NCBI GenBank assembly: GCA_900618425.1
Contig: UZAN01039861.1
Span: forward strand, 6,607 to 70,606
Direction: 5' to 3'
Length of the DNA: 64,000 nt
DNA from: Echinostoma caproni
Taxonomy: Eukaryota; Platyhelminthes; Trematoda; Plagiorchiida; Echinostomatidae
How positions within the stretch are numbered: position 1 is the stretch's first letter; each line of letters begins with the position of its first letter. The translations under genes were made by a program, and so were the position numbers. Below, piece by piece: positions 1,996-60,475 of this stretch. The notes below the pieces were generated by a model that made no database searches, was not told where the DNA came from, and saw only the letters and a list, made by a program, of their open reading frames with translations.

Positions 1996-2049
1996 ACTGC
2001 ATTCAATTGTGTACTCTACAATTTTCGCTAGACAGTAGCGACCCAGAAT

Positions 2050-2090
2050 CACACCGCCAGTTTCACGGTCCTTACCGCTCGTCAGGTATG
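2050..2090 (-). ncRNA. Degenerate type I hammerhead ribozyme (unit 1)
   Basis: Read on the minus strand: CATAC (stem I 5' side), CTGACGA (a perfect CUGANGA box), stem II GCGG/CCGT with loop TAAGGA, GAAA, a CTGG mini stem III, then CG, then GTGTG (stem I 3' side). Stem I pairs over 5 bp with one G-U. The only departures from the core are at the cleavage site, where TC is replaced by CG (positions 16.1 and 17), so self-cleavage is not expected. It aligns base for base with the intact motif at 55166-55208. The mini stem III differs as C-G here and U-G there, which is compatible with real pairing. Confidence 0.65.
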
Positions 2091-2342
2091 GGTGACGACT
2101 AATCTTTTATCCGGTCATTCTTATACTTCAAGTCCCGATATGAATTAAGCTATGCAAATCTCATTTTCAGCTCGGGGAGTTGATTTTCAGATAGACAACC
2201 AAGCCTCGAACAGTCATTGCAATCATTCTATGTTGGATATTGTGGGTTAGATTCGTCCAAAATCAGTCGACTTAACGCCAGGGCCGATTTTCTGTTTTTC
2301 TAATGGGAGGAATACGAACGACTGGACAAAATTTCTCAGAAA

Positions 2343-2386
2343 CACACCACCGATTTTACCGTCCTTACCGCTAGATAGGCGTGCGC
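2343..2386 (-). ncRNA. Decayed hammerhead remnant (unit 2)
   Basis: The minus strand keeps stem II (GCGGTAAGGA...), an AAAA in place of GAAA, a CGG mini stem III and GTGTG. The CUGANGA box has collapsed to CTA next to the stem. It is recognisable only by alignment to the copies at 2050-2090 and 55166-55208, and it is certainly non-functional. Confidence 0.5.
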
Positions 2387-2419
2387 ACTTTTTTCGGTAA
2401 TGCGCATTAGCACATTGCA

Positions 2420-8555: not shown

Positions 8556-8592
8556 CTTGAATAGAATTGCATGTGGCAAAGACATGCAAAAA

Positions 8593-8714
8593 CAAATCTG
8601 TTTTTGTGGCACTTGTCAACAGGCCAACACAGTACACAATCGAACATGTAGACACAACACAGCGTGATAATCCGTAGTGTAACTACTCATACAGTTATTG
8701 CAATGATTGATGTT
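8593..8714 (+). repeat. Left arm of inverted repeat bounding the nested PLE/CR1 locus
   Basis: This 122-bp block, including CAGTACACAATC, CATGTAGACACAACACA and GTGTAACTACTCATACAG, is repeated in reverse complement at 10558-10683 with only scattered differences and a 2-bp indel. Weaker similarity appears to extend inward to about 8765 and 10495. It lies just upstream of the PLE reverse transcriptase, where a PLE pseudo-LTR or inverted partial copy would sit. Confidence 0.8.
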
Positions 8715-8775
8715 GGGCAATGTATTCGGATGGACCAGTGAATGATGTTCAAGGAGAAACATTCGTAAACTTACC

Positions 8776-9780
8776 ATGGAATTCCAGATGGAAGATTTGT
8801 ATAATCAACCGAAAGATTTGATACCTATGGGTGAAGTGGAAGTAGCACAGTTGAAATCTACGTTTGTGAATTTCAGTCATCAAAATCTCACCTCCGAACT
8901 ACCCAGTAAGGGTATAATAAATGAGCAGCACAAAACAACCTTAGGCGAAATACGAGAAAATAAATCCATTCTCTTAACGCGTCGGGATAAAGGAGCAGGC
9001 ATTGTAATAATGGACAGACCCATGTATCGCGAAAAGGTGAAAGAACTACTGAAGAAAACAAAGACATTTTGCACAAAAGTGGGTGAAAAAGACAAAAGCA
9101 TTGCTATAGAGAAACGCATCAGCAAATTAATCCGACGTCTGAAACAACGAATTGTGATCGACTCCGCAGCATCTGAAAAGAGAAGACCAACAGGAAGTAT
9201 CATTCCGAGACTTTACGGTCTACCGAAAATACATAAGCCGGACGTACCCATGCGGCCCATTCTTGATGTGTCCGGTTCACCCTATCATTTTATCGCTCGT
9301 TGGTTAGCTGAACTACTAGAACCTGTCAGGAGGAAGTTATCATCACAGCTTACTTTACTCGTTTGGGTTCGTTGACGCAGTTCGAGAAATGAATATGGAA
9401 AATCAAAAGACGTTGTCATTAGACGGACCTCTCTGTCCACAAATGTCCCTCTCACAGAGACGATAGACCACGTTTATCACTTCCTCTCCAACAACGATAT
9501 CAACATAAGCATAACGGTCTATGTTTGTAACGAATGCATCACTTTTTGAATGTACAATTCCATTTCAATGGTACCATTTAAAAAGAGAAGGATGGCATAA
9601 TAATGGGGTCTTCCTATGGTCCACTACTCGCAGATATATTCATGTCTAAGACTGAGAGTAGCACCCTGTAACCTATCATCACACGGATGAACATGTAGAA
9701 GCGCTATGCTGATGATATATTCTGCTTAGAACCTTCAAAAATAAACATGAACGCGGTTCTGCTAACGTTCAATGAATCTA
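8776..9780 (+). mobile_element. Penelope-like element reverse transcriptase, truncated and frameshifted
   Basis: The first frame (8776-9375, 199 codons) has the PLE N-terminal block: LTRRDKGAGIVIMDRPMYRE, then the hallmark RLYGLPKIHKPDVPMRPILD and GSPYHFIARWLAELLEPVR. These match the conserved YGLPKIHK..P.RPI..S.GSP.y..a..La..L.p element of PLE RTs. Beyond the stop at about 9373 the homology continues with frameshifts: SLSTNVPLTETIDHVYHFL near 9430-9490 (SLFTNVPL type), GIIMGSSYGPLLADIFM near 9600-9645, and the catalytic KRYADDIFCL near 9699-9730. At least two frameshifts and several stops make it a pseudogene. The thumb and GIY-YIG endonuclease are missing, because at 9781 the sequence switches to the 3' end of a CR1-like element. 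PLEs replicate by target-primed reverse transcription. Confidence 0.88.
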
Positions 9781-9781
9781 A

Positions 9782-10490
9782 AAGTCAAAGTCAAAGTTTT
9801 ATTATGGGCGATTTACCAAAGCTAAAGCTTATCATGCCCCATAGGATTTTTACAGAATGTTTTGAATAACTTCACAAAGAGAAAATAACAATGATAATAA
9901 TGTGTGTGATCACTCACGGATATTGAAATTTTAAGTGTTCCAATGCTTTATCAAGTTGCGATTTATATTGTTCAACTGTAGGAGCACATACTTCATCAGA
10001 TGGGAGAGAATTCCATGCGCCGCACACTCTGACTGCAAACGAGTGATACCGGCAATCAAGGTGGCTGTTCTGGGTCTTTACCTTTAGTGGATGTCCCCTG
10101 AGGTGATCATTATGAGATAAAGGCAGTAGAGAACGGCAAGGGTGGTTGGGTCGATGCGGTATGTGATATGCCAATATTAGGTCCTCTCGAAGTCGGCGGT
10201 ATTGGGATGAGTAGAGTCCCAATATTTGCAGTCTTTCGGAGTATGTCTTGTTATATAGACCTTTTACCAATTTCGTTGCCAGCCTCTGCGGACGTTCTAG
10301 AGCCTTCCTGTCGCGGGTTAACCATGGATTCCATACTTGAACGACGTAATCCGTGTGTGGCCGAACGAACGCTGATAACAAGCGTGGAAACAGTGGTCTT
10401 TCGAAATGCCCGAAAACACGTCTGAGAAGTCCCACTTGCTTTAGAGCCATAGATGATGCGCTGGCACAGTGCGTTCAAACCATTCAAATG
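9782..10490 (-). mobile_element. CR1-like retrotransposon, 3' fragment inserted in the PLE
   Basis: The minus-strand frame 9914-10450 (about 178 codons) is the C-terminal part of a CR1/L2-type RT protein. Blocks include LLRRVFGHFERPLFPRLLSA, FVRPHTDYVVQVWNPWL, LERPQRLATKLVKGL and YRRLREDLILAYHI. The element ends with a short 3' UTR and a (TCAAAG)n-type tail, seen on the plus strand as AAAGTCAAAGTCAAAG at about 9781-9796. It is 5'-truncated at about 10490. The same 3' end, with TTTTATTATGGGC next to the tail, occurs at 51824, so both belong to one family. It interrupts the PLE, so it is the younger insertion, or replaces the lost PLE 3' part. Confidence 0.85.
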
Positions 10491-10557
10491 CTGATTCACA
10501 GCCGTTTCTAAACGTTCTTCTACAAAGAAAATTCGACGGGGGAATCACACAGTCCCC

Positions 10558-10683
10558 AATATCAATCATTACAATAACTGTATGAGTAGTTACACTACGG
10601 ATTATCACGCTATGTGTTGTGTCTACATGTTGGATTGTGTACTGTATTGACCTGATGAGAAGTGTCAAAAAAAAACAGATCTG
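10558..10683 (-). repeat. Right arm of inverted repeat bounding the nested PLE/CR1 locus
   Basis: Reverse complement of 8593-8714. The pair spans about 2.1 kb. The arm is intact although the enclosed PLE has lost its 3' half. Confidence 0.8.
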
Positions 10684-10709
10684 TCTTTATTTCTTTCAGA
10701 CTTCTCGGA

Positions 10710-29143: not shown

Positions 29144-29240
29144 CATATAATCTCATTTGAGTAATGGAGGATTTGATTAAATTTCAAATGGGAATTCATC
29201 GTGTATATGGTAAATAAAGTGTGAACTGAAAATCTAGGAA

Positions 29241-29285
29241 GCACTGGACAGCTGTTCCTACCTGGTTCGGTCTCATCAGCAGTGC
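29241..29285 (-). ncRNA. Type I hammerhead ribozyme motif (near-complete)
   Basis: On the minus strand: stem I is a perfect 6-bp pair of GCACTG (29285-29280) and CAGTGC (29246-29241). CTGATGA matches the CUGANGA box exactly. Stem II is GACC/GGT. The GAAA box reads GGAA (A13 to G), and stem III plus cleavage site is ACAGCTGTC, with cleavage expected after the final C. The A13 change and an unpaired closing base of stem II probably abolish activity. The spacing of about 20 nt downstream of the B box is the same as in the copy at 48542. Confidence 0.75.
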
Positions 29286-29299
29286 GAATGCATCAACCT

Positions 29300-29367: not shown

Positions 29368-29462
29368 CTGATCAGACTGCTCTTCATTTTCCATCTACAC
29401 GATATAACACAACCCATCTTTGCGAGCTTGTTGCGGGCCACAGACCCTGCTCATCTCAGAAG

Positions 29463-29501
29463 CAGATGAGACCCAGTCAAATCGAAACAGCTGTCCAGTG
29501 C
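29463..29501 (+). ncRNA. Hammerhead motif in the inverted arm
   Basis: CAGATGA (U4 to A in the CUGANGA box), GACC, a long loop, then an intact GAAACAGCTGTC and the stem I 3' strand CAGTGC. The matching 5' strand of stem I and the 3' side of stem II are lost. It restores the GAAA box that the minus-strand partner has lost, so the ancestral ribozyme can be inferred from the pair. Confidence 0.6.
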
Positions 29502-29569
29502 TTCCTAGCTTTTCAGTTCATGCATCATTTGCCATATACACCACGAATTCCAATTTGAAATAATATGAT

Positions 29570-38443: not shown

Positions 38444-39358
38444 NNNNNNNNNNNNNNNNNNNNNNNNNNNNNNNNNNNNNNNNNNNNNNNNNNNNNNNNN
38501 NNNNNNNNNNNNNNNNNNNNNNNNNNNNNNNNNNNNNNNNNNNNNNNNNNNNNNNNNNNNNNNNNNNNNNNNNNNNNNNNNNNNNNNNNNNNNNNNNNNN
38601 NNNNNNNNNNNNNNNNNNNNNNNNNNNNNNNNNNNNNNNNNNNNNNNNNNNNNNNNNNNNNNNNNNNNNNNNNNNNNNNNNNNNNNNNNNNNNNNNNNNN
38701 NNNNNNNNNNNNNNNNNNNNNNNNNNNNNNNNNNNNNNNNNNNNNNNNNNNNNNNNNNNNNNNNNNNNNNNNNNNNNNNNNNNNNNNNNNNNNNNNNNNN
38801 NNNNNNNNNNNNNNNNNNNNNNNNNNNNNNNNNNNNNNNNNNNNNNNNNNNNNNNNNNNNNNNNNNNNNNNNNNNNNNNNNNNNNNNNNNNNNNNNNNNN
38901 NNNNNNNNNNNNNNNNNNNNNNNNNNNNNNNNNNNNNNNNNNNNNNNNNNNNNNNNNNNNNNNNNNNNNNNNNNNNNNNNNNNNNNNNNNNNNNNNNNNN
39001 NNNNNNNNNNNNNNNNNNNNNNNNNNNNNNNNNNNNNNNNNNNNNNNNNNNNNNNNNNNNNNNNNNNNNNNNNNNNNNNNNNNNNNNNNNNNNNNNNNNN
39101 NNNNNNNNNNNNNNNNNNNNNNNNNNNNNNNNNNNNNNNNNNNNNNNNNNNNNNNNNNNNNNNNNNNNNNNNNNNNNNNNNNNNNNNNNNNNNNNNNNNN
39201 NNNNNNNNNNNNNNNNNNNNNNNNNNNNNNNNNNNNNNNNNNNNNNNNNNNNNNNNNNNNNNNNNNNNNNNNNNNNNNNNNNNNNNNNNNNNNNNNNNNN
39301 NNNNNNNNNNNNNNNNNNNNNNNNNNNNNNNNNNNNNNNNNNNNNNNNNNNNNNNNNN
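38444..39358. other. Assembly gap (915 N)
   Basis: Run of N. The long frames spanning it are artefacts. Confidence 0.99.
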
Positions 39359-42800: not shown

Positions 42801-43535
42801 CGCTTTGCCCACAAATGCAACAGTCACGCGTAGTTGCTTCAAGTTCATTGTGATCAGACGAAAGTTTGGTAAAGTATTTCTGCTCTATAACAGGAACTTT
42901 ACAGTGAGGCACTACAGACTGCCAAGAACTATGTAAAAGTATTCCATTCGGCATTTATTTCAGGTACTTCAAAGAGTAGTTTTTTTATCGGGGATAGTTC
43001 ATGCATAAAAACCTAAATTTGGTAGAAACAATCCTATCCGTCGAAGAGGAAGACATGGAAAATTGAAGAAACTGTACAAGAAGAAGTTCGTTCTGCCCCA
43101 ATGTTGCATTCGCAGCTCAGTAGCCTTCAGATCTGTTTCAGAGAGATGAAGAGATGGAACAATAAACATTTTATGGACGCCGAAATACCCAGCGGTAACG
43201 ACTCAACAAACGATAGCTGGTTAAAGGATAAGAATGACACAGCTAAATCAAAATGAGTTGAATGTGACAAATCAGTGAGGATCACATGAGCTCAACTTTT
43301 CACATGGTCGGATATTGTGGTTACTCATTTTTGTGATAATTGAATTGATACGAATGAGATAACTGGGACTCTTTTGCGAATTCGTTGTATAAATGAGGTG
43401 TGGGCTGCTTGGAAAGGAATTGACATAACTTGGGGACATCGAAGGAAAATAGTCTCTGTTCGTGAAGGTTATTCAGAATGGGAGAATAATTCCATTCGTG
43501 GATGCACTTCAAGACACCTGATAAAATTTCATAGG
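39845..43535. other. Unannotated sequence
   Basis: No gene or repeat recognised over about 3.7 kb. Confidence 0.45.
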
Positions 43536-43587
43536 GAGAGTTCATCATGAATAGAGCAAAATGAAGCCTGAACTGAAAAGCTAAAAA

Positions 43588-43632
43588 TCACTACATATCT
43601 ATTTCGACCGAGTTGGGTTTCATCGGCATGGG
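43588..43632 (-). ncRNA. Decayed hammerhead motif
   Basis: Minus strand: CCGATGA (U4 to C), AACC, CAACTC, GGTC with pairing ACC/GGT, an intact GAAA, then TAGATATG where ACAGCTGTC is expected, and AGTGAT for stem I. Cleavage site and stem I are lost. It is recognised by alignment to 29241-29285. Confidence 0.55.
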
Positions 43633-43685
43633 GATCGAACCCGGGACCTCAGAAGCATAACGCATGCATGCCACCCACTCGGCCA
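43631..43685 (-). promoter_or_regulatory. tRNA-like internal pol III promoter
   Basis: A box TGGCCGAGTGGG (complement at 43674-43685) and B box GGGTTCGATCCC (complement at 43631-43642) fit the tRNA consensus almost perfectly. This is the best-preserved promoter of the family in the window. Confidence 0.8.
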
Positions 43686-43884
43686 CCGGCAGCCAATCAA
43701 ACCGTTTCTGATTTTGAATATTCACGATAAAGTACAATCCATCTTTGTGAGCTTGTTGCGGTCGACGGACTTAACTTATCTTAGCACTAACCTCCAGGGT
43801 TGTGACTCGGTTTCGAAACCTTCACAACCTGACAACTTGTTATGTGAGAGGAGTGGAGGATTTGATTTGATTAGCTAATGAAGT

Positions 43885-46800: not shown

Positions 46801-48455
46801 TGAGAAGAATACGAGGGAGAGAGAGAAATTGACCTTCTATGTGGAGGACTGTCGTATCAGTGCAGGGGTATCCATCTAGTTTTTGGTATGCGCCTGATAC
46901 TCACCTTTGCATCCTCTTGTTCCGAGAAGCTGCTCTCCGAGACAGGAAGACAAGTAATGTTTGAGTGCAACCTAAACATGTAAAAGAGGCTTAGTTAGAT
47001 AGTACTCTTCTGCCTTGCAGATTGTACTTGATTGTGCCAAGTGTGTATCCTCCAATGGAAAAGCCAACTGTATTGGAAACGCTATCTCTTATCGCATTCC
47101 CATTAAACTTCCAAGAATTTCGGGGAGGGCGGGATCGGTGAACTCCGATGTGCAGTGCCCACGACCTACTTGGTTCACGGCATTTCGCTGTGGACCCGGG
47201 ATTGGGTCTTTATCTGCACCGAATACAGCAAATACCGCCATGTATGGAAAACAACCATACTGTATGCTTGACCTATCTTTTCTATCAAGACAGTAGTGCG
47301 AAAAAATGAAATGTACTCTATAGTGAGAATTTCGCCTGTCCATCCAAAAGCTTGCAGTTTGAGATATAAAGCATTCATCACGAGTTCCAAAACCCTATGA
47401 GGTGATCTGTGGAGGCAATTGTACAAACTTCCATGATAAATAACGCTGTTGTGAGTCATTTACCAATGGAATGAATCCCTCAGTGCATTCTTCATCCTTA
47501 TATAATTAAAAACGTAAGAATGGCCCTTTGAATTGAGTAAATTTCATCTTATCTATCAGCGCTTCAAATTATTCGTCCCATTGGTTGTGATATCACTATA
47601 GGATACGTGATTTGCCATATAGGATTTCAGCTAATGCTTCAATTTAGCAATAAATGCACAAAAATTGTATTTCTTCTTTAAAAATGCAGGTCGACATGCA
47701 AATCTAACCAAAATTTCCCAGTTGTTTGTTTTACGCAACCGATTGGTTCCTTTTGCAAACTTGGCATTACCAACTCCGATTCCATTGTGTGTCACCAGAT
47801 CAGGTTCATGTGTGTATGTGTGATTGATTGTGACTCCGGGTGGGGGTGGATGGCAGGAGAATAGGGTGTTTCAAAAGAGTCAGTCATTTGTTGTGAAGCT
47901 CTATCCCCGCCTGTTCCAGTAGTGTTTTCAAGCGAATAGTTTTATTTATGTACACTGGCTATCACTATTCAGGATTTACTCCATGCATACAAAAGTTTAC
48001 AACTCCTAATTCCACCTCAGTTGGATCGATAGGGATTGTGTTTTGTATATAATCATCAATCTGTTTGGATGCATTTGTGAAGAAATCGGACAACCTCAAA
48101 ATCTGGAACACGTTTGTTCCTATGTGTGACGAAGATACAAATATTCATTGATTAGAAATCACCGTCCTTCAGGCTTCACCTTCAAGCATAATCCTCAGCT
48201 CTTTCTCAATTCTTCCAACTAATCAATATAAGTTATCCCATACCACTGCTCACAAACAGCTGAGTTAAATGTGGATTACTAACCCAGTCTAGGTGATTTG
48301 TGGCCGTGGAAGACCTGATTTGGTGGGAGGCTTTTGATTGCAGTTAACATACGGTCAACTGTCTTCCTTCGTTGCTATCGGGCCAAAATTAACTGACGGA
48401 CTATCAATAAAGATGAATCTTGAATAAACATCAATTGAGCTTTCTCTTCAGCCCT
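43885..48455. other. Unannotated sequence
   Basis: No recognised gene in 4.5 kb. The longest plausible frame, minus 46264-46725 (153 codons), has no domain I know. It reads like an old element or chance frame, and no supporting splice structure was found. The frames at 45751-46102 overlap on both strands. Confidence 0.4.
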
Positions 48456-48464
48456 GGCATTAGT

Positions 48465-48590
48465 CGTTTAGCACAGAGGTAACACTCATACCTTCCATTC
48501 GATGGGTCCGGAGTTCAAAGCCCGGACAGGACTATAGAAATGCACTGTTGATGAGCTCTAATAGGAGCAAAACTCGAGTCTAATGCTTTC
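48465..48590 (+). mobile_element. tRNA-hammerhead retroposon, third copy (different ribozyme stems)
   Basis: Plus strand. A box TAGCACAGAGG (48469-48479), B-box-like GAGTTCAAAGCCC (48511-48523), then, after about 18 nt, a hammerhead (48542-48586). The spacing and the stem I strand GCACTG are the same as in the 29 kb copy, but stem II and the mini stem III have different sequences that still pair. This supports a conserved ribozyme and not a chance match. The 3' boundary is unclear. Confidence 0.7.
48542..48586 (+). ncRNA. Type I hammerhead ribozyme motif (two core changes)
   Basis: Stem I is GCACTG (48542-48547) with TAATGC (48581-48586): four Watson-Crick pairs, one G-U and one C-A mismatch. 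The box reads TTGATGA (C3 to U). Stem II is GCTC (48555-48558) with GAGC (48565-48568) over a TAATAG loop. It is followed by AAAA for GAAA (G12 to A) and ACTCGAGTC, with cleavage expected after C48580. G12 and C3 matter for catalysis, so this copy is probably inactive, but the whole architecture is present. Confidence 0.7.
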
Positions 48591-48599
48591 AAGTGTATG

Positions 48600-51500
48600 G
48601 TTGGACGAACGAGTTGAGAAATATTCGTGAAGATGAAGTCTGAAGGATGGTCAATGCATTTTTTAAACATAACCTCGAAATCTCACCATAACTGACGAAA
48701 TATTGCTACTTAAGTCTCGTGTTGAGCTTTGGGGCTATAACTTGCACTTTCTGTTAAGTTCATTTGCCGTCAGCATTCTATGTCCTCGTTTTTCGATGTA
48801 TTCACCAGATCCGTGACTATCAGCAGTAACTTCTTCTTCTTCGAATTCTGTTGGATCTGTGTCTCATCAAAACATACCAACAATTATACGAGTAACCAAA
48901 GCAAGTATATGATATTCAGTATACTATTTCGAAGTACACTGACTATAGGTCAACTACTCTGTGAATCAAAAATTTATTGATTTCACAGAAAGGGAATAAC
49001 CATTGCATTTCTACCATCGCCTTCGTAGAAGCAAACGAAGTTGTGTCGGTTTGTCCCTTGCAAGTAACTTCTTCTGAAGTGTTATAAATCCCCAAAAGTG
49101 ATTTTTACTGTCCTACCTTCTTGTCCATTTTGAAGTAGCAGAAAACAGATATCAATAAACAAAAGAATGTGATCTACGTGTTAACCTTGGGGTGACTCAA
49201 ACATCTATTTGATATATCCACTGTAAAACACCAGGAGTCCTCGAACGAAGAATCATTTAGTATTGACACTCATCTGCACCAATGAGATGTCGTTATCTTG
49301 AACAACATTACCGGTCTGAGATATGGAATCTGTTGTTTTATGTTAAAACTTTACTAAATGACAGAAATTCAAATTGGAAAGAAACCATCGTTATTTAAGC
49401 CAAATTAGCCATTGTGGTCCACTGGTTATCTCGTCAGTTGTTCCACAGCTAGCGGTCAGATATCGCCTATGGAGCCTATTATCTTTAAATTCATGATAAC
49501 AAATAGGTGTCAAATATGTTGTTGTGTATTCTACCCTTTTCAAAGTCCCCAGTCATTTTTAAGACAGCTGTTTTTATTTCCTTATGTTGTACATTCCTGA
49601 TTTGTTTGAGTTCAGCTTATTTCAGACCACACGAAACATTAGTGGCTGATGATTGGGTAGCTCGACAACGAAGCCCAACGATGTAAGCCCCGAGGTTAAC
49701 ACAAAATAAGTAGCTGATCTGTGTTCAGCCCTGGCCACTATAATACTATAGAGCAAAACAAAGGTCTAACGCATTATGAATGAATAAAATAAATAAGAGA
49801 TAAATAAGTAGAGGGACGAAGCTGAATTCCATAACATTTGTCCCTAAAGGTTTTTGATAGTTCATTGAAAGGACGCAAGCCACTTCAAATCCTGTACTGC
49901 TCACATTCCATCCAAGTGAGCATGCGGGTTAAGAATGCATGAGTCAGATACAATTGACGTCATGCGACCAGGTAACATGGGTCATTGAGCGATGGGTTGA
50001 TAAACTGAAACCTAACCTTTGTGCGCTTCATATGCTAACTGTGACAAGCCATTCAGAGCCTACGGCAATATAAATGGCTCCAACACATATAAATCAATCA
50101 ACAGAATGTCTCATGAATACCTGCGGGAGTATGAAAAGAGGTAGGAGAATGGTCCCTTGCTGAAAAACCATGTCAAGTGTGCGTACCAGTAATCCTGACA
50201 TGTTAAGTCCGTTCATCAATCGGAAGCTAATTATATCCTTTGGATTAAATTTGAAAATGTGAATTCGAACACGTGGTGTCATACTTATTCAATAAACATG
50301 GCACATGACATTGGTGATGAACATATAAAACTGTAAGAGTTTTCATCCCACTCGGTTGGTCATCTTACTCTGTATTGAATCATAGAGGCGAAATCAATAA
50401 TTACATCAGCAATCACCGATGCCAGTTTGCCAAGAAACTGTTCATTTATTCTGTCGTTTAGTTAAGTGGTTCCCCGACCGAATACAAGCACAAGTTCCTG
50501 AACCATTATCAATTCATTATACTTAATAATGTTTACATCTTCCTTTTATGCTTATTTGACAATAATTTCAAACAATAATGCCAAATTTCGAAACTTCGCA
50601 ATACCTAACTTGTTCGGATTTTGACCATGTTGAGAGCTTAGTAAACAAGAGAGGCCTTCCAACCGGAAATAACAACCAGTTCGATTTGCTTTGTCCTTAT
50701 CGATCTTAATCTGGTTTTTGTATCCCCTGGGTTCTTTGCTCGCCCTCCTGATCAAGTTATTATTAGGATTTGCAACACGGTATATAGTCATTTCAACCAC
50801 ACAACACATTTGAAGTCACAACCGTCAATGGAACCTGAAGAACGTCATGCTACTAGCTTACACGGTCTCTGAAGCAGATTTTTCTAATTTTACTCATTGT
50901 GTTTCATCCATTTTTGGTCTCATCTAACTGATTATCTAAATGTTTATTTCAAGTTTGCTACCCACGTGAAGTCCTTAATTTTATTTCTGAAACACAGAAA
51001 ACACCTGTTAATCGAAATGATTTGATTTTATGAGGATTTCGACCTTTATGGATTAGTAGACCCATAATGGTTTAATATTGAAACCATATTTGTCGCAAAT
51101 CGAAGAAAATCAGATAGATTCTCCGAATCAAGCCTGAAGTAATCCTTTCAAAATGCAAAAGCATATTCTAATATTGACTGACTACACCTTGATTTGAAGT
51201 CTGGTCTATTCCTGATTGCTGGGTCTAGGTTAAGGCAACTTGTGTTGATTCGGTAGGCATTTTCGTTTATGCTAGCAATGTACGCTTGTTACAGCACGGA
51301 TTATTATGACATAATGTATAGTTTATATATCAGTTCTGCGCATCATTTGGCCTTCATGAAGAGCGAATGCTCATCAACACGGAACTTCCTGCTCGCGAGC
51401 AACTCAACTTTTGGGTCAACCAAACTGTTTCGCTTCTGAGGTCATTCGCCTTGGGGAAGAAAATGCTACTGTCACGAAATCGTACTGTTTCCCATCACGC

Positions 51501-51823: not shown

Positions 51824-53465
51824 AAGTTAAAGTTTTATTATGGGCATTACTTACAAGCAGATGCTTTTCTTGTGCCATAGGGTGTTAACACTAATTGAAC
51901 TGTAACAACAATGAACAAAATTCCACATGATGCATTCGGTTGGTTTTTGTGTGTTCATGGATGTTGGAATGCAATGTGTGTTAATGATTCGTCAAGTTTT
52001 ACCTTGATAGAATCAATCGTCTCGACACAAACAACATGAGATGGTAAGGATTTCCAGGCAGTGCACAACCTGCGAGGAGAAGGAATGAAGTCGACAGTCT
52101 AGTCAAGACTTTTGGAGTACTAACTTGAATGGATGTCCTCATAGATGAACGTTTGATGACAAAGTCAAAAGTCGGTGACAAGGGTGGTTTAGGTTGTGTA
52201 ATATTTGGTACCCTAAGATTAAGTCTCCTCGAATCCGACACTACTGAGCAGAGCATAGGCCCAATCGGTGCAGTCTCCCCATGTATGAATCATAATAGAG
52301 TCCTTTGACCATCTTCGTGCCGAGCCTTTGTGGACGCTCCATAATCTTATGATCAGGTTGTAACCACGGATTCCAAGTTTGGATAGCATAATCAATATGC
52401 GGCCGGATGTATGCTGACAGCAGACGTGAGAATAAAGATAGTTCAAAACCACCGAAAACACGTTTAAGTAGACGGACATGTTTGAGTGCTGTTGATGACG
52501 CCTAGGCACAAGTAATAGAACAGCTCAGGTCTTCTTGGACTACAACACCCAAGTCCTTCTCTGTTGATGCATGAGGCAGTGCTTCGTTTCCGAGGAAATA
52601 AGGAAACCGCCCATGATGGCGTAGTGAAATCACCTTGCATTTGGGGACGTTGAATTGGATGTCGTTCTCAATAGACCATTTGTAAGCTGCATTCAGTATT
52701 TCTTAAAATTCAAGCGAACCCCCACTTTCTGTCACTGTCTTCCAGATTTTTACGTCGTCTTCTAACAATAATGTTTGCGGTTCTAGGACATTCGGTAGGT
52801 CGTTTATGAACAAGAGAAAAAGTCGCGAACCAAGCACAGAACCCTGGGAGACTCCGCGAGAATCGGTGATAGGGGCGGACAGTAAATTAGAGACTCGAAC
52901 CGACATTGTACGTTGTTGGAGAAACGCAGCAATCCAATCAAGCGCGAGGTCTCTAATACCAAAATTGTACAGTTTACGGAGCAGTATTTCGTGGTTCACC
53001 CAATCGAACGCTTTGGAACATTCCAGGTAAACCACATCAACTGCGTCCCCTTTGTCTATTGCCTTTTTCCATTCATCGCGGGCCAGGAACAGATTGGTAG
53101 TACACGAGCTCTTTTGACGGAATCCATGTTGAGCTCGGGAAAGGAGGTCGTATTTCTCTAAGTATTCCATCAAGAAATCCGCTACGATGGATTCCATGAC
53201 TTTGGATAGAACGGGTAGGAGTGTCACCAGGCGATTGTTGGCAGGATCACTAAGACAGCCGCCTTTGTGAATTAGAGAAATTATGCCATGTTTCCACGAC
53301 TAGAGCAGCACGGTTGCGTCAAACATCCTTCGGAAAAGAAAGGCTAGCGGCTCACAGATGTGATCCGCTAACGAAATAAGCGGTTGGGGATGTGGATTGT
53401 CTGCAATTGGAGCCGAATTCTTACGTAGATCCAGAAGCTTTGAGTTGTGACTTCACCTGGATCTG
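51824..53465 (-). mobile_element. CR1-like non-LTR retrotransposon, 5'-truncated, mutated
   Basis: From 53465 down to 51824 the minus strand gives most of an RT: ICEPLAFLFRRMFDATVLL, a stop (53300-53302), SWKHGIISLIHKGG, and NRLVTLLPVLSKVMESIVAD. Then the long frame 53227-52703 has LLSRAQHGFRQKSSCTTN, YLECSKAFDWVNHEILLRKL, GVSQGSVLGSRLFLLFIND and LEDDVKIWKTV, where FADD has become LEDD. After a frame change come NVPKCKVISLRHHG, LLKRVFGGFELSLFSRLLSA, YIRPHIDYAIQTWNPWL and RIRGDLILGYQI. The 3' end is TTTTATTATGGGC plus a TCAAAG-type tail, as at 9782. Stops and frameshifts plus the altered catalytic motif mean it is dead. Confidence 0.92.
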
Positions 53466-54984: not shown

Positions 54985-55240
54985 AGTAGAACAATGCAAT
55001 GCAAATCTCATTTGCGGCTCGGGGGAGTGGATTTGATTGAGCAAGTCTCGAAGAATCATCGAAACTTGCTAGTCTCAAATTCACACCAAGAGCTGCAAAT
55101 GAGATTTGCATTGCATAAGTCACATCGAGCGTGGAAGTGTAAGAGATACCAGACAAAGGGTTACGCATACCTGACGAGCGGAAAGTACCGTGAAATAAGT
55201 CGTGTGCTTCTGGAAAGTTTTGTCCAGTCATTTATGTACT
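54985..55240 (+). mobile_element. Hammerhead-bearing element with inverted 5' half
   Basis: The segment 55090-55240 is the family seen in tandem on the minus strand at 2000-2400: shared GAGATTTGCATTGC, TACACTTC-type and GACGAGCGG blocks, a hammerhead, then TTCTGGAAAGTTTTGTCCAG. Its 5' part is repeated in reverse at 54993-55019, giving arms of about 26 bp (54993-55019 and 55091-55116) with a partly paired interior. The transcript could fold into one long hairpin followed by the ribozyme. There is no convincing ORF. It is best read as a non-autonomous PLE-like or retrozyme-like unit. Confidence 0.65.
55166..55208 (+). ncRNA. Type I hammerhead ribozyme with intact core
   Basis: Stem I: GCATAC (55166-55171) pairs with GTGTGC (55203-55208) over 6 bp with one U-G. 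The CUGANGA box is CTGACGA (55172-55178). Stem II: GCGG (55179-55182) pairs with CCGT (55189-55192), closing on G-U, with loop AAAGTA. GAAA follows at 55193-55196, and TAAG forms the minimal stem III and loop. The cleavage triplet is GTC (55200-55202), with the scissile bond after C55202. Every invariant core base (C3, U4, G5, A6, G8, A9, G12, A13, A14, A15.1-U16.1, C17) is present. The sibling at 2050-2090 keeps the same stems. It is a strong candidate for a self-cleaving RNA. Its short stem III suggests dimeric or tertiary-contact-dependent cleavage. Confidence 0.8.
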
Positions 55241-55264
55241 ACTCACTAGGGGTAGAACGGCCTG

Positions 55265-57396: not shown

Positions 57397-57776
57397 TTAC
57401 GTAATCGGGTTTTTAACACATTCCGAACTGGGTTCAGTGCAAAATTGTCATGTCAAAGTCCACGCAGCCGATAACTGGTACGGACCGTGCTTACAAATCA
57501 CCAACCACATCGATTATAGTGTCATATCTATAGGTATTGACCAAACTCGTGCAACATCCTGATTTTCTTCACATTTGTTCGTCTCAGTGTTTCGTTTATC
57601 CAGCCTCATTCGAGGGATTGAAAATGATATTGCCCCAAATCAGACGCGACATATTCATAATAATATCCATCTATATATTTACTTCTGTTAGCCACACACC
57701 ATTAAAGTGTACGATTTCGCGATTTTGGCGATGGTTGCTGGTGCGTCAGTTGTAAAATAACAAAGTCACGGTATAG

Positions 57777-57922
57777 CAAAATTGCACGATTTACTTCCTG
57801 GACGATTTCGCTGCATCTCAACTGGTGTCTACTGCAGACGAATACTGCTTATATAGGGCTTGGTAATGGATTACAAAATAAACACTTATAAATGGGGGAA
57901 GTGTCACCAAGACAAGGCCAAG
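57777..57922 (+). repeat. Left arm of a 146-bp inverted repeat around a PLE fragment
   Basis: The arm includes GACGATTTCGCTGCATCTCA, ATTACAAAATAAACACTTAT and GTGTCACCAAGACAAGGCCA. It is repeated in reverse complement at 58092-58238 with modest divergence. Such inverted flanks are a known arrangement of PLE pseudo-LTRs. Confidence 0.85.
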
Positions 57923-58091: not shown

Positions 58092-58238
58092 AAGGTCTTG
58101 GCTTTGCCTTGGTGACGCTTCCCCTATTTACAAGTGTTTATTTTGTAATCGATTCCTAAACCCTATATAAACATTGTATTTTTCTGCCGTAGGCATCAGT
58201 TGAGATGCAGCGAAATCGTCTAAGACATAAATAGTGCA
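58092..58238 (-). repeat. Right arm of the inverted repeat around the PLE fragment
   Basis: Reverse complement of 57777-57922. It contains a hairpin GCATC-AGTTGA-GATGC (58192-58207) followed by GCGAAATCGTC. This is vaguely ribozyme-like but has no CUGANGA box. Confidence 0.85.
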
Positions 58239-58244
58239 ATGTTC

Positions 58245-60475
58245 CCATACTGACTTCTCTTTTCAGACTTTATAGTGACAGTTTGGTACAGTTTTCAAAC
58301 GAGTCCACTAAAAACACCTTTTGTTGGCACCGAGTGTAACGGTCTACCGAGCATTGCACGCGTGTGAGGCATGTGAAAAGAGGAATTGAAATTTGGCTGC
58401 AAATAATTTTTAGACAAATTAGTTTGATAAATGTTTCTTAAATCTCGCATGAATGTTTTATCTAGCTAACTCCAGCAGTTGCACTCCCCCAAAGTATTTC
58501 ATTCTAGCAAGCATTATTCACTCTCCGCAGACGACGACAGATATATAAGTAGTATATGTATGACTGCATAACGGATTGCACAAGGCATTTCACAGTAGTT
58601 GAACAAAAGCTATAATATGAGACACATTTTGAATAAGTGCTCATTGAAATAAGAGCGATAACAAATAGAAAAGAATTATAATAATTAACTGAAAGGTGGT
58701 AACTTAATTAGAAAAGATATTTGTAATTCTACTGCAAGTATCAAGTTCGCTTATGTCAAAGTCAATGAATTAAATCGCAATCCTTGTGCAATCCCCTTTT
58801 TCAGCCTGTCTGATGGTTTATGTTGGTACATAAATCTAAGGATAGTATCATCCGATTATCGGCTTTTTAACTGAAAGATCGTTTGTGTTGGATTGGTATA
58901 ATCATCTCAAAACTTCTGTGCAAAACAACAAAGGGTAAACAAAAGCTAGTTGAGGATAGATCTGTTCTAAGATCTGTGGCTAAGCAGATTAAACGAATTG
59001 ATTCAGATCATCTGATTGTTTAAAAGCCTTTGCAGTGTTGCAGCAAACGAACTCACCTTGACCTACGTGGAGCAGGTCACTGCTGTTTGACAGTTTTGAT
59101 ACCAATTAGGCACGAACAGTGGTCACATTGTCATTGCCCCAATGAACTCAGAAGCTGATAATCCGCGCAGTTGAGAGTGTTGTACCGGCTTCATTGAGCC
59201 GTGTCCCATTTCCAAAGCAGTCCATCATCCAAATAAGTGAATACACATTGTGTCAATAAGTAAAAAGTATTTTCGTAAATATTTGAAACATCTATCAAGG
59301 AAATCCTCGGAAAGCCTGCTGCATGTCTAATTGAGTTAACACAAATGTGTAATGCAGATTTTTCTCTGCGGACCGCTGATTTAGATAAACCACCGTCTCA
59401 CAATGAAATGTTGCGTCTGAGAGTCCGTGTATGAGCTTAGAATCAGAAGTACCGATGCCTTAGTTCATGATTCAAGTGTTCGCTTGTTTGTGTTACCCAC
59501 CGCAACGGCATAATAAGATCCGATGCACCATTATGTGTTCCAAACCAAGAGAGTCTATTTGACTGATGTACACTGAAGTATAAAACCACTACAGAATGCT
59601 CTCTGTGTTTTGTGCGAACGTGGGGTAAGGCGTTTCGAAACAGAAATGCAATCGATCAGCAAGTAGACAAAGGCACTTTGTCACCAGGTGAGGTAGAGAT
59701 TCATGCATGGGACGAATCGTGCAAGTGAGCAATAAACAGTAGGTCAGAATAACACTGACCAGTAAAACAAACTATTTTCCATCACCATTTCCAAATGTTT
59801 CAAACTAAAGTCTTCGTGGTCAAAATATATCCAAAGGAGAACAAGTCTGGGATTGATCGTCGTTTCGTTTTTATGTTGCTAAAAGATTGATGGTAAACAG
59901 TACATCATTTGAAGCCCATTTGAAGTGCCTTTCTCTGTTAAACGGGGAAAATCATTTCTTCCGGATGCTGTGTAAATGGAATGAAAAGCTTTCAGTGTAG
60001 AGTCATTAGAGTAACAGATTAAAAAAGGAGTCAAATATTGAGCATTGCGCATTTAATTGTTTTATCAAATTGCTTCCTCTACCAAACACCTGGAGGTAAG
60101 CGACAGTGATGCATGATGCAGGCGACTACACTTGCAAATAGAGTGCCACTGGTGATCAACTCCGGAGAACAAAAGCTGTATGTATGGGTCAAGCGATGGT
60201 TAGCAAACTTTGAAGAGGGACTTGTATCTCATTAACTTCCTAGGAGCCAGACATTCTGATGTGATTACTTACTGTCACCATAAATTATTTGGTCAAATCA
60301 ATTCAATAACAGACTACCAGTGGTCGCTTTGTTACTGCGTGACTGTTATGGATTACATTACGCAATAAATAAAAATTCCAAATTATGCGCGTTTGTATGA
60401 TGTAATTCTCTCCGGTTGCAATTCAAACTCGAACCATTCCACTTGCCACATACATCTCCAGAATAAGTGGGGCGG
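58245..60475. other. Unannotated sequence
   Basis: Nothing recognisable in 2.2 kb. Confidence 0.45.

Follow-up and report, generated by a model that had tools for sequence, protein, structure and literature searches.

An intact hammerhead ribozyme core in a probable remnant of a small mobile repeat

Introduction

Among the closest described systems are the Penelope-like elements, whose pseudo-LTRs carry tandem minimal hammerheads without helix III; the available sections of PMC7761336 and PMC6155905, which describe this arrangement, also suggest that these minimal hammerheads may cleave as dimers. For one such element, excerpts of PMC11167929 report that the hammerhead cut only with the protein of the element present, that insertion in vitro was unaffected by hammerhead mutants, and that the cut site coincided with neither the start nor the end of any RNA-seq read. 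The same excerpts also mention earlier self-cleavage of a Penelope-like hammerhead at 3-25 mM magnesium. As far as these excerpts go, the mutant and RNA-seq results weaken the role assumed for Penelope-like hammerheads.

A second group of relatives is formed by the animal retrozymes. Their units are about 300 bp long with less than 45% GC, and efficient dimeric cleavage is described for amphibian hammerheads in which helix III is weak, according to parts of PMC7229834. In flatworms, the Schistosoma mansoni W-elements carry hammerheads with a short stem III, of which five were tested in vitro: three cleaved, and the other two, which had defects, were inactive (excerpts of PMC8490949). This is the nearest flatworm experimental precedent found. 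According to the accessible part of PMC2770079, blastn with the Rfam hammerhead gives more than 38,000 and more than 5,000 matches in Schistosoma genomes.

The repeat analyzed here shares with the minimal type I hammerheads of Penelope-like elements (Cervera & de la Pena 2014 and Lunse et al. 2017, as cited in other papers) the type I order, the canonical core, and a minimal stem III, the last of which is seen in the copy with an intact core (copy A). The tandem occurrence described there is matched at a locus with two further copies (B and C). However, a search with Penelope-like reverse transcriptases found no such frame attached here, and the likeness is by description, not sequence. The same kind of likeness, again by description and not sequence, exists with the W-element hammerheads W25.2 and W36.2 of S. 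mansoni, which in the excerpts of PMC8490949 are likewise part of a flatworm-type repeat, have an extremely short stem III, and occur as a mixture of intact and broken copies.

With the animal non-LTR retrozymes, as outlined in parts of PMC7229834, the repeat has in common a type I hammerhead, a tandem unit of about 300 bp (293 nt here), and a GC content below 45% (43% here). In the window, the 64,000-nucleotide stretch of DNA that was analyzed, tandem units of this length and composition with a hammerhead each were found at the B/C locus only. In contrast, the invertebrate retrozymes of the same parts have a stronger stem III, and animal retrozyme units are highly self-paired, whereas the B/C unit is not: folded as a circle, this decayed copy of 293 nt was no more stable than expected, its minimum free energy of -62.9 lying close to that of 100 shuffled sequences, which averaged -61.9 (z -0.2).

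The schistosome SMalpha/Sjalpha SINE-like elements are also hammerhead-bearing repeats of trematodes, and the other hammerhead-like sites of the window resemble them. Copy A differs in that no tRNA-like head was seen there and it aligns with none of the SINE-type sites of the window, which served as the comparison. Word searches of the open-licence literature by name, not by sequence, returned no record of the repeat. Because hammerheads in animal mobile elements are known, we regard the repeat of copy A as mostly ordinary, a further hammerhead-bearing repeat of an already known type.

Results

Hammerhead positions are numbered here by the usual scheme with its list of invariant bases. The type I core consists of C3, U4, G5, A6, N7, G8, and A9, followed by G12, A13, and A14, the A15.1-U16.1 combination, and H17. 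Direct reading and a script found every one of these bases in copy A, in the correct order, and this is the only hammerhead-like site seen in the window with all catalytic bases. The motif reads GCATAC (55165-55170, 5' strand of stem I), CTGACGA (55171-55177, core start), GCGG-AAAGTA-CCGT (stem II at 55178-55181 and 55188-55191, with its loop at 55182-55187), GAA (55192-55194), ATAAGT (stem III, 55195-55200, beginning with A15.1 at 55195), C (C17, 55201), and GTGTGC (55202-55207, 3' strand of stem I). The sequence can form three helices with stem I open. Stem I has 6 bp including one U-G, stem II has 4 bp with a G-U as the core-adjacent pair, and stem III is marginal, with an A-U and a U-G pair enclosing a loop of two A residues. 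The cleavage triplet is GTC, and from the sequence the cut is predicted after C17. The initial annotation had listed all catalytic bases in order, a 6-bp stem I, a 4-bp stem II, a minimal stem III, and a GTC triplet, and each of these was confirmed. Its coordinates (55166-55208) were off by one, and the cut that it placed after 55202 is predicted instead after 55201. The features of the window are listed in Table 1.

Table 1. Coordinates of the hammerhead copies, associated repeats, and related features in the window
Feature	Position	Strand	Evidence
Copy A, minimal type I hammerhead motif with intact core	55165-55207	+	Direct reading, script, strict descriptor
Hammerhead A plus outer stem Ib (CCAG 55149-55152 / CTGG 55210-55213)	55149-55213	+	Pair probabilities
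Repeat remnant around copy A	55059-55244	+	Local alignment, BLAST within window
Fold-back, inverted duplication of the upstream part of the repeat (arms 54994-55020 / 55090-55116)	54994-55116	+	Sequence, RNA fold
Copy B, hammerhead homologue; CTGACGA and GAAA intact, triplet GCG for GTC	2043-2096	-	Alignment, BLAST, RF02275
Copy C, hammerhead homologue; damaged core (CTATCTA, AAAA, GTG)	2336-2389	-	Alignment, BLAST
Partial tandem: hammerhead C, spacer, hammerhead B	2043-2399	-	Alignment
Decayed Penelope-like reverse transcriptase fragment, possible helper relative, unlinked to copy A	8746-9785	+	Protein matches, tblastn
SINE-like repeat, tRNA-like head with hammerhead just downstream	29236-29296; 29448-29506; 43500-43790	-; +; -	Rfam, eye
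Second tRNA-headed (by eye) repeat with well-formed hammerhead	48440-48600	+	RF02275, alignment

The folding of copy A was examined by pair probabilities, which were 0.98 to 0.99 for stem Ib, 0.79 to 0.86 for stem I, and 0.98 to 0.99 for stem II. With stem Ib added, stem I is interrupted by an asymmetric internal loop. A competing pairing of G5-A6-C7 with G16.2-U16.1-C17 reached a probability of 0.71 to 0.72. Folded alone, copy A was no more stable than shuffled sequences (z -0.74 for 76 nt and -1.60 for 53 nt).

A loose core pattern gave 4 matches in the window versus 1.44 expected, which is unremarkable, as at least 4 matches occurred in 7 of 100 shuffles. A hammerhead descriptor scan, as proposed in the initial annotation, was carried out in a strict form, which required pairing and A15.1-U16.1/H17 and was designed with copy A already in view: 55171-55201 was the sole match in the window, at a random expectation of 0.067 matches per sequence (60 Markov-1 sequences of the window length minus N). 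With a stem I of at least 5 and a stem II of at least 4 pairs, none of the 60 random sequences matched. Further forms were compared with 10 random sequences each. At most one core mismatch with stem I at 6/6 and all four stem II pairs gave 1 match versus 0.1; with stem I at 5/6, 1 match versus 0.9; and at most two core mismatches gave 12 rows (11 sites) versus 8.3. The contrast with random sequences therefore disappears as the descriptor is relaxed.

No Rfam family reached its own gathering score anywhere in the window, and a whole-window scan at E<=10 gave 10 matches, none of them copy A. In a scan of 201 bases, RF00163 gave copy A 13.5 bits (E=2), where the cut-off is 34. The alignment jumps directly from CUGACGA to GUC, so that beyond the start of the core only the triplet and stem I contribute to the score. 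The low score may come from the missing stem III, as the model expects a fuller one. The initial annotation had taken the lack of a covariance-model hit as evidence against a hammerhead, and the sub-threshold score comes near to such a lack. Because minimal variants without helix III are on record in the available sections of PMC6155905 and PMC7761336, we did not count this score as decisive.

Next, copy A was compared with the other copies of its repeat. The local alignment of A with B (55059-55213) scored 146 versus a maximum of 42 in 200 shuffles, and that of A with C (about 55147-55244) scored 77 versus a maximum of 38 in 200 shuffles. BLAST within the window aligned the remnant around A at 74% over 149 positions with B and at 75% over 69 positions with C. 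On these alignments we regard the homology of the three copies as firm. The diverged sibling with the same stems claimed for copy A is thus real in copy B, with all four stem II pairs kept and 5 of 6 stem I pairs retained. Copy C pairs at 6/6 in stem I and 3/4 in stem II. The type I core is broken in B at positions 16.1 and 17 and in C at several positions, and both copies carry G at position 17. With G at this position, cleavage is not expected. As both siblings have it, the ancestral base at position 17 of the repeat is not settled, and together with the one damaged core it makes the family look decayed.

The aligned B/C locus is bounded, approximately, by the outer stem I of C on one side and that of B on the other and comprises one unit and a truncated neighbor, with the position-17 bases 293 nt apart and a unit GC content of 43%. 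The lowest-energy fold of copy B is not a hammerhead. RF02275 matched copy B in a scan of 601 bases (20.1 bits, E=0.025, cut-off 52); we rejected this match as support for a cleavage site in B, since its GUC sits downstream of the homologous triplet.

Both a covariance model and a profile made from A, B, and C found the three copies strongly, which follows from their construction, and their next matches had E=0.58 and E=0.4, respectively. In the three aligned copies, 91.7% of 36 cells pair, versus 11 to 53% in slid versions. Covariation in the stems of the three sequences comprised four further pair types and no two-sided change, and 156 of 500 shuffles reached the pairing score. Between A and B, identity was 21/23 in the core (P = 0.06) and 34/43 in the whole motif (P = 0.39), compared with 85/112 in the flanks. 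Excess conservation of the hammerhead over the flanks was thus not significant between A and B, and the core comparison gives no support for selection on the ribozyme core.

Local alignment and the covariance model over the window found no tandem partner for A in its own element. Around A, the B/C locus, and the 29-kb repeat, the search for target-site duplications gave matches of 6 to 8 bases, which are unusable. An exact-pattern search for further copies had no match in viral contigs, and a protein search with the 114-amino-acid frame across A returned two candidates, none at E<=0.001.

The reverse transcriptases (RTs) of the window were also investigated. We take the decayed RT fragment in Table 1 to be Penelope-like from its RT motifs; three of its 11 matches named an organism, namely Paragonimus kellicotti, Schistosoma mattheei, and S. 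spindalis, and Pfam gave no match on the 8746-9372 piece. When the RT part of these 11 proteins was used in tblastn, this fragment was the sole strong match, and none adjoined A, B, or C. A LINE RT at 52706-53299 on the minus strand matched RVT_1 (E 5.3e-18); its best match had 69%, and the matches that named an organism, 5 of 61, were all from Dicrocoelium dendriticum. By these fluke RT matches, the setting of the window looks trematode-like. An inverted repeat of 150 bp (87%; 8578-8723 and 10549-10696) flanks the Penelope-like fragment and an apparent LINE 3' piece, which was recognized by eye on the minus strand (9917-10474) and had no Pfam match.

Other hammerhead-like sites of the window belong to repeats with tRNA-like heads. 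In the repeat at 29 kb and 43.6 kb, we presume these heads from an A/B-box-like stretch seen by eye. At the 29-kb locus the hammerhead end is present again in inverted orientation, giving two outward-facing hammerheads, and RF00163 scored 31.2 and 21.7 bits at this locus, below the cut-off of 34. Each of the three SINE-type sites (29.2-29.5 kb and 43.6 kb) has core changes, and they disagree at position 4 with no majority there. The 48.5-kb hammerhead has a 4-bp stem II, a palindromic stem III strand, and two core changes, and RF02275 matched it at 48537-48597 (19.9 bits, E 3.2, cut-off 52). The consensus of all four sites has a complete hammerhead core. The alignment of the 48.5-kb with the 29-kb repeat was weak (score of 53 versus a shuffle maximum of 43). 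ARAGORN found no tRNA genes in the window, and the recognition of tRNA-like heads at the SINE-type sites is accordingly a judgment made by eye.

Discussion

It is very likely that copy A is a minimal type I hammerhead by descent within a degraded small repeat of the Penelope-like/retrozyme type, surviving as a solitary, neutrally decaying fossil. The hammerhead identity given in the initial annotation is well supported by descent, through the intact core, its rarity, and two homologues of the same plan. From the observed motif, its rarity, the two homologues, the 293-nt spacing, and the RT remnants, we infer how an active family might have propagated. A tandem-unit transcript would be cut at each hammerhead, and the stem III strands of two hammerheads may pair and thereby aid cleavage. 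The self-pairing of this strand spans 6 bases in C (AUCGGU, -3.1 kcal/mol) and 4 bases in B (-2.0) and is poor in A (+2.2). Cutting would release a unit-length RNA of about 293 nt, which would be circularized and then reverse transcribed by partner machinery, for example that of a Penelope-like helper element. Copy A would be a fossil that kept its intact core by happenstance.

Two alternatives concern what the intact core of A means. A copy that is active and selected, transcribed and cleaving in vivo, is unlikely in our view. Its core bases are all intact, its stems I, II, and Ib are favored in the ensemble, and three of five short-stem-III schistosome hammerheads cleaved in vitro (excerpts of PMC8490949); against this stand the poor stem III, the competition of G5-A6-C7 for G16.2-U16.1-C17 (0.71 to 0.72), the uncleavable position 17 of the siblings, the partner that was not found in its own element, and conservation that does not significantly exceed that of the flanks. 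We consider it quite unlikely that the motif arose by accident within an unrelated repeat. In favor of an accident, about 1.4 matches to the bare core pattern are expected per 64 kb, relaxing the descriptor slightly brings it to the random level (1 versus 0.9), and the Rfam cut-off is not reached. Against it, the strict form is expected 0.067 times per window, and CTGACGA, stem II, and GAAA are kept in B and most stems in C. A motif occurring twice in tandem at a hammerhead-typical spacing by accident is also improbable, although A and B share descent and the trial is not fully independent.

The type of the repeat was considered separately. As a non-exclusive version of the fossil reading, A may come from the pseudo-LTR of an autonomous Penelope-like element, and not from a retrozyme-type repeat that is non-autonomous; we give this somewhat less than an even chance. 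The available sections of PMC7761336 and PMC6155905 describe the minimal stem III as the form carried by Penelope-like elements, and a Penelope-like remnant is present in the window; however, this remnant lies about 6 kb from B/C on the opposite strand and 45 kb from A, and no RT match adjoins any of the three copies. It is extremely unlikely that A is a further copy of the hammerhead SINEs of the window with tRNA-like heads (the SMalpha/Sjalpha kind). The two share the window and the ribozyme class, but in eight comparisons of A or B/C with the four SINE-type pieces no alignment exceeded shuffles, and no tRNA-like head was seen by eye upstream of A.

For copy A, slow cleavage in vitro is plausible, and a present-day function is unlikely. 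To call it the most likely functional RNA in the window, as was initially done, is too strong, given the Rfam score of 13.5 versus 34, the decayed siblings, the absence of a partner, the poor stem III, and no significant excess conservation. Copy A opens no new mechanism. The repeat probably adds a family to the hammerhead-bearing mobile elements of flatworms, and it illustrates a minimal hammerhead under the Rfam cut-off that is detectable only by a descriptor combined with homology. Hammerhead repeats may be common in the host genome, as in schistosomes; the window also holds remnants of apparently two tRNA-headed SINE families.

Upstream of copy A lies a fold-back of 123 nt, whose 27-nt arms are 96% complementary. 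Its RNA (54990-55120) folds at -77.3 kcal/mol (z -14.0), and none of 200 shuffles was as stable. BLAST also aligned the left arm (54996-55059) with the B locus in inverted orientation, at 77% over 70. Self-priming or twin priming during reverse transcription, at the 5' end of the inserted copy, is a possible origin of the fold-back. A match to MIR399 on it (25.4 bits, cut-off 57) was taken as a hairpin artefact. The predicted cut of A is 85 nt downstream of the fold-back. It is conceivable, though very unlikely, that in a transcript of this locus, if there is one, the cut trims a long hairpin RNA at its 3' side. Such a ribozyme-trimmed hairpin, the product of a decaying mobile element, could then be a source for small-RNA silencing directed at the family it comes from.

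Two further inverted-repeat pairs, one of about 160 bp (83%; 57763-57922 and 58097-58256) and one of 92 bp (87%; 550-641 and 1058-1148), resemble small inverted-repeat elements. A run of 915 N at 38444-39358 is an assembly gap or a masked stretch.
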